Assembly: GCA_038734945.1 (NCBI GenBank)
Contig: JAVYOA010000001.1
Location: 124,001 to 188,000, forward strand
DNA from: Fervidicoccaceae archaeon
GTDB taxonomy: Archaea; Thermoproteota; Thermoprotei_A; Sulfolobales; Fervidicoccaceae
Direction: 5' to 3'
Length of the DNA stretch: 64,000 nucleotides
Part shown: positions 3,967 through 9,036 of the stretch, piece by piece
Numbering within the stretch: the first letter of the stretch is position 1
How the letters are laid out: each line of letters starts with the position of its first letter
Program-made: the position numbers and the translations under genes
The notes under the pieces: generated by a model
What the model was told of the DNA's origin: nothing
Seen by the model: only the letters and a program-made list of their open reading frames with translations
The model's database searches: none

Positions 3967-4584
3967 TCAAAAATTATTTTGAATGTGGGAAATGCCGGGA
4001 CTCGCTCCCGATGAATAGACCTCCAGGTAAACCAATGCTGCCATTAGGGTCATAGTGATGATGGCAGGAAATATTGAGAGAAACGGCGTCAAGAGATGAT
4101 ATGCTGGTCCACTATTTACAATGGCTGGGGGAATTGTGAGAGCTCCAGCCGAGGATACCCCTCCTAGGCTCTGCGGTATTTCTCTAATTGCCTCGCCAAC
4201 GAGAACTACTCTGGAGAGGAAAACGAGCGCTGAAAGCGAGGGATATGCTAGAGAAACAGCAAACGACGCCCTGGCCAAGTTTCGATTCAAGCTGGATCTG
4301 AAAACAGATGCAAGTAAGTAAATACCAATGATAATGGAGATGAGAGAGAAGACCAAAAGGGGATAAGAGAGCTCAGAGGCTCTGTCCAGAGCATCAATTG
4401 ATAGAGGATCTCCAAATATAAACAGGCTGTAGCCTGCAAGGGCAATTCTCCCCTCAATTGAGCCCTCAAATTGGTAAATAGGGAGAACAAGAGAAAGTGC
4501 TGTTAGGGTGCCGTAGATCAGTTGAGATGATCCTGCCAGCAGCCTAAGCAGCCTAGGAATTCTTAGTGAACTCTGCAATTCCAA
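3967..4584 (-). CDS. predicted membrane protein of the surface-filament operon
   Basis: I do not recognise a family. The 205-residue protein has about four to five hydrophobic segments (roughly 15-40, 50-62, 73-94, 107-130, 168-190) and a short polar tail. Its start overlaps the 3' end of the signal peptidase gene by 32 bp, so it is the last gene of the minus-strand operon that begins with the filament-like protein at 7722. Coupling to the peptidase suggests a role in export, anchoring or assembly of the secreted proteins, which is inference from position only. Confidence 0.72.
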   Translation of the reverse strand: MELQSSLRIPRLLRLLAGSSQLIYGTLTALSLVLPIYQFEGSIEGRIALAGYSLFIFGDPLSIDALDRASELSYPLLVFSLISIIIGIYLLASVFRSSLNRNLARASFAVSLAYPSLSALVFLSRVVLVGEAIREIPQSLGGVSSAGALTIPPAIVNSGPAYHLLTPFLSIFPAIITMTLMAALVYLEVYSSGASPGISHIQNNF

Positions 4585-5677
4585 CCCACCTGTTTGTTCT
4601 GTTCATAAATTCATAGAATACTTCTACGTATGCATAGTCATATTGACTTGGAAATTCTATCTTAAGGCTTCCAGCAGGAGGAACAAGTGTCTGGTTGAGA
4701 AGGCTCATGCTTTTCTCTATCCTTGGGGAACCATAATATGAGGTTGCATTAACATAGTATATGGTGGAATTTATTATGCTGAGGGGGACAGGATTTGGAT
4801 TCTGGATCAGTAGACTTGCATTCTCAATTTCAAGTTCTGGCTCCTGCCATGATATGACCAGGGGATAAGAGCCTGTTAGCTTTCCCTTATCAAGATTAAG
4901 GGACAAGTTCAGCTGATAGTATGTTGATTGATTTTCATATAGAGCCTGCAGAAGATCGGCAGGCATGGGTGCAATGAGAGTGGTCCCGTTAAGGATTGAT
5001 GCGCTGCATGGGAAGGATGTGGATTGTAAAACAAAAGAGCAGGAATCCACGCTTTCAATTGATAGATCTCTGAGATTGTAATTCAAAACAACAAGGGTCT
5101 TGTTCTCAGATAAACCAATAGAGCTCAGAGTTATGCTTGGAAGCTGAATTTCGGCTGCCTTTCCTGGAGCTTGAATAACTGTGAATAGAAATGAGAGCAC
5201 TAGAACCAGGAGAACAAGCGTGAAGACAAATGCCTCTAGAGAGAATGGCGAGAGAAGAGATTCTTCGAATTTTCGAATGTCTATGTAGGAGAATATGGAG
5301 AGGATGAAGAGGGAGGATATCCATAGCCAGGCTGGAACAGATAAAAGAAGCTTGTACCTCACGCTCTCTCTTTTTACTGGAGGATCTGGTATTGGGTTGA
5401 AGTCCCCCTTTGTTGTTACAATACCATCGCTCACATTCAGGACTCTGTGTATTGTGCAGTGAAACGGATCGCTACAATATATTACTATGTCTCCAGGAGA
5501 GTAGCTGCTGATGGAGGTTGAGATTGAGAGCGCGAGGTCCCCTGGTTTCAAAGTGGGGTACATCGAGAATCCCCAAACGATGTTTATTGATGCTGGAAAA
5601 GAAAAGAGCCTGGAGCCTATAGCAAGGAGGAAAATGAGGATGGCTGCTGCTGTGTACAGAAAACTGCTAGATTTCAA
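4553..5677 (-). CDS. archaeal/SipW-type signal peptidase I with C-terminal extracytoplasmic domain
   Basis: Residues 1-100 form an S26 signal peptidase. An N-terminal membrane anchor lies at about 8-25, the nucleophile S38 in GFSMYPTLKPGD, H77 in CTIHRV (archaeal and SipW-type enzymes use His where bacterial LepB has Lys) and an acidic box KGDFN at 90-94. Further membrane segments lie near 108-130 and 148-170. They are followed by ~200 residues rich in beta strands and Asn-linked glycosylation-type sequons, predicted to be outside the cell. At 374 residues it is about twice the size of a housekeeping archaeal signal peptidase. It sits directly behind two secreted-protein genes, so it is likely a dedicated processing enzyme. 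Confidence 0.9.
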   Translation of the reverse strand: MKSSSFLYTAAAILIFLLAIGSRLFSFPASINIVWGFSMYPTLKPGDLALSISTSISSYSPGDIVIYCSDPFHCTIHRVLNVSDGIVTTKGDFNPIPDPPVKRESVRYKLLLSVPAWLWISSLFILSIFSYIDIRKFEESLLSPFSLEAFVFTLVLLVLVLSFLFTVIQAPGKAAEIQLPSITLSSIGLSENKTLVVLNYNLRDLSIESVDSCSFVLQSTSFPCSASILNGTTLIAPMPADLLQALYENQSTYYQLNLSLNLDKGKLTGSYPLVISWQEPELEIENASLLIQNPNPVPLSIINSTIYYVNATSYYGSPRIEKSMSLLNQTLVPPAGSLKIEFPSQYDYAYVEVFYEFMNRTNRWVGIAEFTKNS

Positions 5678-5678
5678 T

Positions 5679-7130
5679 TCAGGAGATCACCTGAACTGTT
5701 ATTGGATAGTAGACACAAGCCCCCTGCCCACCAGAAATCGTGCAATATATTAAGTTCAAATTCAGAGAGGATGTGCCGGAGCCGGAGGAGCTTATGCTTG
5801 CTATTATGGCATTTCCTGAGCCAGGAAGCAGGGAAATCTCAGACGTAGAATAGGAACCTGGAATTCCCGAAGAGAACGTTATCGATGTCGAGCTCGCTCC
5901 ACCTTGAGAAAGGAGATAGATTGAGCCGGAGTGATTTGATGAGAGAGAGTATGAGGATAGGGAAAGCGATGCATAGTACTGCACTGTGTCCAACACGGTT
6001 ATGTTCAATATGGATTTCGATGAGAGGCTATTTATGTAAAAAGTGTAGATATATATTGAGGCAGATGTGTTTGCCTGTGCTATATTTACTATTAGAGTTG
6101 CTCCAACAACTGAATATGAGTCTCCTCCGAGGATGGCGCTGGTGGTGGGAGCTGTGTACTGAGCAAGCAGCAGTCCTCCCTGAGAGCTGTATATTGAGAT
6201 GCTGCCGCCGCTTCCAGTACCGACCACAAAATCTGAGACTACACTTAGAGAAAGCTGACTGCTGCTCGCTGTTCCAGAGGATACCAGGTTTCCAAGGCTA
6301 TCTCTTATTTCCACGTACATTCCAGAGGAAAGATTTTGTATGGTAATAGTCCTTGGATCTACTGTTGAAATGATGAATTCGTCGAAATATGCAGAAACAT
6401 CATCTACGGACACTCCTATGTAGGCTGGGGTGAACACGTTGGTGCTGGTTATGGTTGCTGAAGCTGAGGTAACATAGTTTCCGCTGGCATCGTAGAGGTA
6501 TGCCGTTATGCTGATGGTACTCCCGGAGACCGAGTAGTTTACCACAATAGTGTACCAGGCGGCTTGACTATAGCCAGGTATAGCAACACTAGCGTGATTG
6601 CTCCATCCATTGTTTACCACCACGTTGTAGCTCCATATCTGGAGGTACCCGGCTGTGGATCCTGTAGTGTATATCTCTACCGTGTACATTCTATTTATTC
6701 TTGAGTTCATCATGGGGATGCCGTACCATCCAGTTCCCGAAACCCATCTTGTCTTCAATGCTATCCAGTAGCTATTGCCTGATACTTGTGTGTTGTAGTA
6801 GTACTGAGATTCACTTCCAAGACCTCTGTTGTTGTCAGTTCCCTGCAGGACGTTTCCCTTAGCTCCCGCCACATTACTAACTAGAGTCCATGTGCCCCCA
6901 TCACTATTCCATCCTGAAAGAGGATATGTTTCAAAGTCTGTATATGTTATTGCTCCCCTAGATGTTAGCTGAATGCTTGCATATGTTTGGGGGGGCTGGG
7001 TGAATATGACTGGGGGTCTGGAAGGCGAGGATGATGCTGAGAGCTTATAGAAAACGAACACAGAAGCAAGAGCTACTGAGAAGAGAAGAAGAGAGATCGA
7101 AAAAAGAATAAATAGTTTGCTTTTTGCAAT
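5679..7130 (-). CDS. secreted surface protein with concanavalin/lectin-like domain (ATT start proposed)
   Basis: The mature protein of about 460 residues is rich in Ser, Thr, Tyr, Gly and Asn. It has a lectin/glucanase-like beta-sandwich region near its N-terminus (FETYPLSGWNSDGGTW to YFDEFIIS, about residues 40-235), followed by beta-rich repeat-like sequence. The first conventional start (GTG 7061) would leave no signal peptide. The same frame stays open up to a stop at 7134-7136 and encodes a classic signal or anchor segment (AKSKLFILFSISLLLFSVAL). The best start is ATT at 7128-7130, with GAGGTGA at 7139-7145 eight bases upstream. It lies 13 bp behind the filament-like gene and 1 bp before the signal peptidase gene. 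It is likely an adhesin or a minor/tip filament component. Confidence 0.8.
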   Translation of the reverse strand: MAKSKLFILFSISLLLFSVALASVFVFYKLSASSSPSRPPVIFTQPPQTYASIQLTSRGAITYTDFETYPLSGWNSDGGTWTLVSNVAGAKGNVLQGTDNNRGLGSESQYYYNTQVSGNSYWIALKTRWVSGTGWYGIPMMNSRINRMYTVEIYTTGSTAGYLQIWSYNVVVNNGWSNHASVAIPGYSQAAWYTIVVNYSVSGSTISITAYLYDASGNYVTSASATITSTNVFTPAYIGVSVDDVSAYFDEFIISTVDPRTITIQNLSSGMYVEIRDSLGNLVSSGTASSSQLSLSVVSDFVVGTGSGGSISIYSSQGGLLLAQYTAPTTSAILGGDSYSVVGATLIVNIAQANTSASIYIYTFYINSLSSKSILNITVLDTVQYYASLSLSSYSLSSNHSGSIYLLSQGGASSTSITFSSGIPGSYSTSEISLLPGSGNAIIASISSSGSGTSSLNLNLIYCTISGGQGACVYYPITVQVIS

Positions 7131-7143
7131 GGCTCATTTCACC

Positions 7144-7722
7144 TCAAGGCGCTGTTTCGCTGTTCGTTGTGCTGTAGATCAGCTGAAGGCTGGCAGTGAA
7201 TCCGCTTCCAGGGCTAGTGCTGTAGGATGAGCCTGTGCCTGCAGAGTAAGTCACTTGAAGATCCAGTGAGAGAGAGCTACTACCACTAATAGAGTACCAA
7301 CTACTGGTTCCAGTTTGCATTAGATTGATTGTAGCGACGGTTGTTGAGCCGCTCCTGATTATTAGAGAGGCGCTCTGCAAGTTTGTATCGGTAGCAGCAC
7401 TGTTCACTCTTACAGCGAAGTAATATGCCTGGGTATCCTGATTGTTGATGTTGGCGATGTTCTTATAGTAGTTGGTCTGGTAGGTAGGATGCACATTTAT
7501 TGAAAGTGAAGTGTTGGCATCCGATATGGTTACTGCTATCTTGTTGCCACTTCCATAGAACAGATCGTTCTGATTAGCATTGCTCCCCAAAGAGAAGTAG
7601 ATCGGTGGTTTTGTTGGTGTTGCTGCTGCTGTTACAGGATAGTAGACGAAGACGCTGGCAAATATCGCTGTCGCTGCCAACGATGCTACCACTAAAAATA
7701 CTAGGGGTGTTACGTTCTTCAT
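7144..7722 (-). CDS. secreted filament-like (TasA/AbpA-like candidate) surface protein
   Basis: The 192-residue protein begins with a type I signal peptide (hydrophobic core about 6-30) and a likely A-x-A cleavage after TAAA near residue 34. The rest is a single beta-rich Ser/Thr/Asn/Tyr domain without cysteines. Size, signal peptide, composition and a dedicated SipW-like peptidase in the same operon resemble the TasA/AbpA bundling-pilus subunits of bacteria and Pyrobaculum. I cannot show sequence homology from here, so the filament role is an inference. It is the first gene of the operon, with AGGAGATGAT at 7731-7740 eight bases before the ATG. That position fits the most highly expressed, structural component. 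Confidence 0.75.
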   Translation of the reverse strand: MKNVTPLVFLVVASLAATAIFASVFVYYPVTAAATPTKPPIYFSLGSNANQNDLFYGSGNKIAVTISDANTSLSINVHPTYQTNYYKNIANINNQDTQAYYFAVRVNSAATDTNLQSASLIIRSGSTTVATINLMQTGTSSWYSISGSSSLSLDLQVTYSAGTGSSYSTSPGSGFTASLQLIYSTTNSETAP

Positions 7723-7730
7723 ATTATCAA

Positions 7731-7774
7731 ATCATCTCCTTTTTAAATCTAAACAATTTTTAGGGTTTAAAAAG
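7731..7774 (-). promoter_or_regulatory. promoter and SD of the surface-filament operon
   Basis: Reading on the minus strand, a TATA-like CTTTTTAAAC lies at 7774-7765. About 25 bases downstream transcription should begin near 7744, giving a short leader with the strong SD AGGAGATGAT (7740-7731) 8 bases before the ATG at 7722. No other promoter-like sequence separates the four downstream genes. Confidence 0.55.
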
Positions 7775-7818: not shown

Positions 7819-9036
7819 TCATAATGCCATTGTCACTTCCTTCAGCCTCTCTCTGAATTTCCCGTAGCTTAGCTCCTTTACCCTCTCCACAGATGCCCTT
7901 GAAAGCCTTCTCCACTCCCCCTCATTGTTCATGAGCCTGAGAACAGCATCTGCTGCCTCATCCCCATCCATATATCCAAGGGCATTTCTCCCATCCTCAG
8001 CCAGATCGCTCCATGCACCTCCAGATCTGTGAATCACTGCTGGAATTCCCCTGGCCATTGCCTCTGCAACAGCAATTCCCCAGTGCTCGTTTACTGTTGC
8101 ATGCATGAATACCCTGGATCTGTCCATGATTTTAAGCTTGAGCTCGCTTGGAGCATTGAGCAAGAGGCATATGCTCTCACTGCATTCTTCCTTTTCAGAG
8201 ATCTTGATCCCCATGCTCCCAGCTAGCTTCATCAGCCTACTCACATATGCTCTGGAATGGGGGGTGGAGGAGGACCCAATTATGTATAGCCTTATCTCAG
8301 GATCCTCCCTGAGGAGCCTCGGCAATACCTCCTCTATGACCCAGTGATACCTCTTCTCCTCGCTGTACCTCCCAATCATGACCACGCTCTTCTCCCTCTC
8401 CTCAAAGTCCCTTGGCCTCTCAACTATCTCCATCGATGGCGGGATTGGGGGGTTCAATACAGTGGGCTTCTCCCCATACACCTCCCTCACAATGTTTCCA
8501 GTCCACCTCGAATTGACGAGAACCAAAGATGCTGATTCGAATGGGTTCCTTCTGGCAAATATGGGAGATATCTTTGTGAAGAGTTTCCAGTATAAGTAGT
8601 AGAAGCTCTTTGAATATTTTTCTCCAATATATGGATCCATTTCCTCCTGAAGCTCTGAAGCTCTCTGTGTGTTGCTGAAGTATATTTCCAGTGGGAAGTG
8701 TATGTACTCAATAATCTTGCTTCCATTTTTCTTATAAAATGGAGAGTCTGTGAGAACTATCTCATCTCCCTTTTCATGCATGAGCAGGAGGGGGAAAAGC
8801 AAGAGCCTTGAGTATAAGGCAAATCCCTTGAGCTCCAGCTTAGGACCGAGCACTGGTATGCTGCTGAGATCTATGCCAAAGAACTCTTTGTACTTCCTCT
8901 TGTCCACATTGTTTGGGGAGAGGATGGAGGTGCGGATGCCGAGCTCATAGAGGGCTTGTGCTGCGGAAGCCATAGTCAGTTCGGCACCGCCTGGCTCATT
9001 CCAGAAGTGATGAGCTACTAGAGCCTCCTTCTCCAT
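7819..9036 (-). CDS. GT4-family glycosyltransferase
   Basis: The 405-residue protein is a GT-B fold retaining glycosyltransferase. The N-terminal HHFWNEPGGAELTM loop (about 9-22) is the acceptor-side glycine-rich motif. VVMIGRYSEEKRYHWV (about 218-233) begins the C-terminal nucleotide-sugar domain, and HWGIAVAEAMARGIPAV carries the conserved EX7E-type donor site. The pattern is close to Alg11-like or mannosyl/glucosyl transferases. It is encoded behind the filament operon on the same strand but is separated by ~95 bp with its own upstream region. A role in glycosylating surface proteins or lipids is plausible but unproven. Confidence 0.85.
   Translation of the reverse strand: MEKEALVAHHFWNEPGGAELTMASAAQALYELGIRTSILSPNNVDKRKYKEFFGIDLSSIPVLGPKLELKGFALYSRLLLFPLLLMHEKGDEIVLTDSPFYKKNGSKIIEYIHFPLEIYFSNTQRASELQEEMDPYIGEKYSKSFYYLYWKLFTKISPIFARRNPFESASLVLVNSRWTGNIVREVYGEKPTVLNPPIPPSMEIVERPRDFEEREKSVVMIGRYSEEKRYHWVIEEVLPRLLREDPEIRLYIIGSSSTPHSRAYVSRLMKLAGSMGIKISEKEECSESICLLLNAPSELKLKIMDRSRVFMHATVNEHWGIAVAEAMARGIPAVIHRSGGAWSDLAEDGRNALGYMDGDEAADAVLRLMNNEGEWRRLSRASVERVKELSYGKFRERLKEVTMAL

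Follow-up and report, generated by a model that had tools for sequence, protein, structure and literature searches.

The closest described system to the locus reported here is the thread of Sulfolobus acidocaldarius, a surface fibre built from the subunit Saci_0406. According to PMC9715654 and PMC11607397, the assembly pathway of threads is unknown and the function of the neighbouring genes elusive. PMC9715654 also proposes an isopeptide bond of the mature N-terminal Asp, which is present in all homologues considered there. A second point of reference is the TasA-TapA-SipW system of Bacillus, together with the AbpA and AbpX fibres.

Here we describe a four-gene operon in a 64,000-nt stretch of DNA from a Fervidicoccaceae archaeon (GCA_038734945.1, contig JAVYOA010000001.1, positions 124,001 to 188,000; hereafter the window). 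The genome carrying the operon measures 1.34 Mb, and its closest named relative, Fervidicoccus sp. ARK-14 (G002), is placed in the same genus. Judging from sequence comparisons and structural models, we consider it likely that the operon builds a thread-type surface fibre with a lectin-bearing minor subunit, its own signal peptidase and candidate assembly factors. Its features are, in window coordinates:

7766..7773, minus strand: TATA-box-like TTTTTAAA, ~45 nt upstream of the pilin192 gene, as read in the sequence
7731-7739, minus strand: putative Shine-Dalgarno-like GGAGATGAT, 5' of the first gene, as read in the sequence
7144..7722, minus strand: pilin192, the major subunit, 192 aa
7657-7722, minus strand: signal peptide of pilin192, codons 1-22
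7594-7656, minus strand: predicted donor strand of pilin192, SVFVYYPVTAAATPTKPPIYF
7147-7593, minus strand: beta-rich head of pilin192
5679..7130, minus strand: minor subunit, a lectin-like pilin, 483 codons from ATT
7002..7064, minus strand: predicted donor strand of the minor subunit, SVFVFYKLSASSSPSRPPVIF
6363..6959, minus strand: concanavalin-A/CBM66-like insert of the minor subunit, from predicted structure
5721..6107, minus strand: pilin-head-like C-terminal domain of the minor subunit
4553..5677, minus strand: signal peptidase with extracytoplasmic domain (ECD), 374 aa
about 5351-5605, minus strand: catalytic part of the peptidase
about 4556-5173, minus strand: ECD, residues ~169-374, past the third membrane helix
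3967..4584, minus strand: mem205, a multi-pass membrane protein, 205 aa

The four genes follow one another closely on the minus strand at 3967-7774 in the order pilin192, minor subunit, peptidase-ECD and mem205, with intergenic distances of 13 nt and 1 nt and then a 32-nt overlap. The tight packing described in an earlier note on this DNA agrees with the coordinates, the spacing and the conserved gene order. Because each gene has homologues and the order is kept in many genomes, these are not chance open reading frames. A GT4-type glycosyltransferase gene (window 7819-9036, same strand) adjoins the operon directly upstream, and its link to glycosylation of the fibre is possible.

A PDB search with the single pilin192 sequence returned no match. 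With a profile built from 24 homologues, Saci_0406 (7pnb; also 8rzl) was matched at E 4e-9 from the signal peptide through the C-terminus, positions 3-185 aligning to 3-199 of 7pnb, and the pilin192 family aligned to Sulfolobus-type threads at 99.4% in hhalign. pilin192 is a distant homologue of the thread subunit Saci_0406, and the filament-type subunit seen in the earlier note is upheld. The AlphaFold model from the single sequence is of low confidence (pLDDT 52); the structure-prediction check proposed in that note, carried out with this model, has 7pnb as the top Foldseek match (E 1.7e-4, TM 0.46) and the sole one below 1e-3. A cannula protein identity was rejected, since no CanA appeared in the PDB profile search. 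No pilin or lectin homologues were found in the viral contigs searched.

Ala at position 22 is invariant across 26 pilin homologues and aligns with A23 of Saci_0406. We infer a Sec/type I signal peptide with predicted cleavage after Ala22, not a class III (PibD) site. The donor-strand motif is conserved among the pilins and aligns in sequence to the tail of Saci_0406. The mature N-terminal residue so defined is Ser23 in pilin192 and Ser, Gly, Ala, Thr or Asn across the window-type clade, throughout which the N-terminal Asp of the Sulfolobus threads is absent at the matching position. In the tree, the window-type pilins form a clade apart from the Sulfolobus threads (support 100/98). With the isopeptide Asp missing, pilin192 therefore represents a sister branch and not a canonical thread. 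One genome in the comparison (G045) encodes a subunit containing all tested 7pnb sequence segments; this identifies the genome as S. acidocaldarius or one very close to it, and the locus as the published thread cluster.

A mechanical ORF caller takes GTG 7061 as the start of the minor subunit; this codon lies within the signal peptide, which is thereby lost. Upstream of it the frame stays open as far as 7130, with IAKSKLFILFSISLLLFSVALASVFVFY as its translation and no ATG, GTG or TTG between 7130 and GTG 7061. The ATT at 7128-7130 stands 8 nt past GAGGTGA (7139-7145), and an in-frame ATT behind a GAGG motif is also present in two related genomes (L051, 144-161; L023, 1-100). Because this combination recurs in relatives, the minor subunit probably initiates at AUU (window 7128-7130), and such a start would make gene callers clip its signal peptide. 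At the contig end of L023 (1-50; genome G001), where the minor-subunit gene starts, there is a palindromic CCTCGCCGTTCACGGCGGGG, possibly an IS200/IS605-type end.

Both ends of the minor subunit resemble the major one. In hhalign, its signal and strand (first ~45 residues) match the pilin at 98.8% (E 7.5e-17) and the C-terminal stretch of ~130 residues aligns with the pilin head at 97.1% (E 5.8e-11), the head scoring 67.8 against 14.5 for the best among 30 shuffles, whereas the middle of the protein matches neither the pilin strand nor the pilin head. The pilin profile detects the minor subunit in the window genome and in other genomes, and in L040 the donor strands of the two subunits are identical at 20/21 positions. 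The AF2 model of the minor subunit was built from 2 sequences (pLDDT 56 overall, ~65-80 in the insert). In this low-confidence model, the insert resembles CBM66 (4b1m, 4azz; Foldseek prob 1.00, TM(target) 0.55-0.57) and also laminin-G, galectin and legume lectin; no Pfam family matches the domain significantly. On account of this modelled fold, lectin-like, as the earlier note called the protein, is a fair guess. By sequence comparison and model, the minor subunit is a pilin interrupted between donor strand and head by a predicted lectin-like insert, which may bind sugar.

Homologues of the minor subunit are present in many loci. In sister thread loci, a PA14 domain replaces the lectin insert (L105: E 6e-6, over the cut-off), and the N-terminal part of the PA14-bearing group matches the thread subunit at 98.1% in hhalign. 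Given these counterparts and their thread-like N-terminus, a pilin with an exchangeable glycan-binding-type domain seems general in thread clusters. Saci_0404 is, judged by its position and N-terminal motif, a member of the minor-subunit group, a role as minor subunit or adhesin that the available text of the thread paper does not discuss. In an S. acidocaldarius-type thread locus (L085, 5828-7153), the Saci_0404-type protein opens with a signal peptide and a thread-like strand and is a candidate minor subunit or adhesin.

The third gene product scores 60.7 bits on TIGR02228 (curated cut-off 51.85), has SEC11A/C as its best solved match (E 1e-11), and its catalytic S38, H77 and D98 are invariant across 20 homologues. 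By these motifs and scores it is classed as an archaeal/Sec11-type Ser-His-Asp signal peptidase, in keeping with the His-type enzyme and large extra domain that had been noticed before. Hydropathy places membrane helices at about 6-24, 110-128 and 150-168, a placement that would put the last ~200 residues outside, as well as the catalytic part. The ECD has no significant Pfam match, and a kinship with the DUF5305 protein of the AbpX operon was rejected, no homology being found. Two further signal peptidases, one of them housekeeping, are encoded in the same genome.

The ECD also occurs on its own. In one group of genomes (f4), a 242-248-aa protein consists of a membrane helix and the ECD alone (hhalign 99.0%), without the peptidase domain. 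Three other loci (L117, L119, L120; f9) have lost the catalytic Ser motif and His and have kept the peptidase-ECD protein, pilin, mem205 and minor subunit; their peptidase homologues are apparent pseudo-proteases. Since the ECD persists without a peptidase or an active site, it is likely the core function, the peptidase being an addition in one clade. In the Sulfolobus and f31 clusters, a one-helix extracytoplasmic protein occupies the corresponding place. Comparison of the ECD and mem205 with the counterparts there gave probabilities of 4-14%, above all shuffles in hhalign, and is only suggestive of homology of these accessory genes.

Phe stands at P3' in nearly all window-type-clade pilins that adjoin a same-strand peptidase, and also in three pilins of two loci (L095, L097) without one. 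The tree needs a single change, so the correlation counts as one event and not as independent support; given this single origin, the idea that Phe at P3' marks the specificity of the peptidase was rejected.

The fourth gene product, mem205, confirms the membrane protein expected in the operon: it is hydrophobic and multi-pass and has homologues in 24 loci, with no significant match to a known family in Pfam. In at least seven loci (L032, L037, L040, L043, L047, L090, L098), mem205 is fused N-terminally to the minor subunit, which ties the two proteins functionally.

The four-gene cassette of pilin, lectin-pilin, peptidase-ECD and multi-pass membrane protein is not confined to one family: many families within the GTDB order have it, as do other orders of the phylum. 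Among 59 related genomes, peptidase-ECD occurs in 25; with pilin presence scored by single-sequence search, 23 of the 59 have both pilin and peptidase-ECD, 2 the peptidase only, 5 the pilin only and 29 neither (Fisher 1.6e-9, the 59 genomes not being independent). The gene-set search suggested earlier thus does recover the peptidase pairing in relatives. The same recurrence runs against the earlier impression that the peptidase fusion and the lectin partner are unusual, and identifies the combination as a conserved cassette instead of an oddity of one genome. No prior report of the four-gene cassette was found in the open-access literature.

In the thread-type mechanism that we propose, pilin192 would leave the cytoplasm through Sec and lose its signal peptide by cleavage after Ala22. 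The freed strand, SVFVYYP...PPIYF, would then occupy the open groove of the next head, giving a chain linked by donor strands in this species as well. The minor subunit, with the same kind of strand and head, could enter the chain and display its lectin-like domain as the adhesive part. The dedicated signal peptidase would leave its ECD at the exit site, where it would most likely receive or join subunits, with mem205 acting together with the peptidase-ECD protein. More specifically, mem205 and the ECD protein, whether or not the latter carries a peptidase, might form an assembly platform for threads in the manner of a chaperone/usher, with the lectin-pilins as adhesin; we advance this tentatively, at somewhat less than even chances. 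One polypeptide would in that case cut the signal peptide, hold the unstable subunit and pass it to the growing fibre.

The peptidase could instead be a cutter alone, its ECD a docking or anchoring domain without a role in assembly, and the fibre could grow spontaneously. The catalytic triad is indeed intact in the window genome, and cannulae, which are donor-strand fibres, have been proposed to polymerise chaperone-free, by the title of a 2024 preprint cited in PMC11952670. A mere cutter, however, fits poorly with an ECD that persists without the peptidase or with a dead one, and with the retention of mem205 alongside it, and we hold this reading to be rather unlikely, slightly more so than an assembly platform. 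Far less probable is that there is no fibre at all and that the two secreted proteins of the operon are surface lectins or associated with the S-layer and have a common export peptidase. This would suit the lectin-like fold, and the fibre proposed for the window organism is a prediction from genes and models; yet pilin192 is homologous over its full length, linking strand included, to a structurally proven fibre subunit, and the donor strand recurs in the minor subunit.

The earlier note had favoured a parallel with TasA-SipW fibres and bundling pili, which would make this a TasA/AbpA-type fibre of the camelysin family with a SipW-type peptidase. The make-up is similar, namely a secreted beta-rich subunit, a second subunit and a Ser-His peptidase (TIGR02228). 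However, the PDB profile search with pilin192 finds the thread and neither TasA nor AbpA, the TasA family PF12389 is absent from the window genome, and the genome's own AbpX-like proteins match pilin192 at 10% over 38 columns in hhalign, which is no match. The peptidase reaches 19.9 bits on the SipW model NF046067, far below its cut-off of 190. Moreover, a genuine AbpX-type operon sits elsewhere in the genome (L138; C1 99,785-104,073, ~20-24 kb upstream of the window). It encodes a 184-aa protein matching AbpX (9sj2, E 3e-8), a protein of 502 aa that carries an SdrD_B domain and has its N-terminus in common with the 184-aa protein, a DUF5305 protein and a signal peptidase of 401 aa that begins with a multi-helix part; similar gene sets occur in L143 and L144. 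By these matches, L138 is taken as the AbpA/TasA-type system of the window genome. We therefore reject a TasA/AbpA kinship of pilin192 and give such an identity of the operon very little credence, the least among the readings weighed here. The parallel serves as a working analogy; as a statement of family it gives way to the thread.

The thread-type reading has several implications. The cassette names three candidates for thread assembly or function, i.e. the ECD protein, the multi-pass protein and the lectin-bearing minor pilin, each open to single deletion or mutation in Sulfolobus, where genetics exists. Thread-type fibres reach well past the few crenarchaea reported so far, and one small genome holds two filament systems, thread-type and AbpX. 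Exchangeable domains of glycan-binding type, ConA-like here and PA14 in sister loci, may offer a reason for the adhesiveness of threads. An ECD that does take part in assembly would give archaea a counterpart of chaperone-usher and TapA/SipW.

Compared with the Saci_0406 thread (7pnb, 8rzl; PMC9715654, PMC11607397), the window system shares full-length subunit homology, a Sec/type I signal peptide, an aromatic N-terminal strand and a PP motif, and the Sulfolobus cluster likewise has a larger protein with a subunit-like mature N-terminus (Saci_0404) and, nearby, a one-helix extracytoplasmic and a multi-pass protein. It differs in that its pilins form their own clade lacking the isopeptide Asp, a peptidase domain is fused onto the extracytoplasmic protein, and the minor subunit has a predicted lectin-like domain between strand and head. 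With Bacillus TasA-TapA-SipW and with AbpA/AbpX, it has in common by analogy a minor subunit, a dedicated archaeal/Sec11-type peptidase and, as predicted here, a donor-strand fibre, although its subunit has no sequence kinship to theirs and the AbpX-type operon is separate in the same genome. The insert resembles CBM66, laminin-G and concanavalin-A-like domains (4b1m, 4azz) in its predicted beta-sandwich (TM ~0.55 to CBM66), but not detectably in sequence. Finally, the enzyme shares with Sec11 and archaeal signal peptidase I (TIGR02228; 7p2p, E 1e-11) the Ser-His-Asp motifs and the N-terminal helix, whereas it adds two membrane helices and the ~200-aa ECD without a Pfam match, and its relatives include dead or peptidase-less forms.
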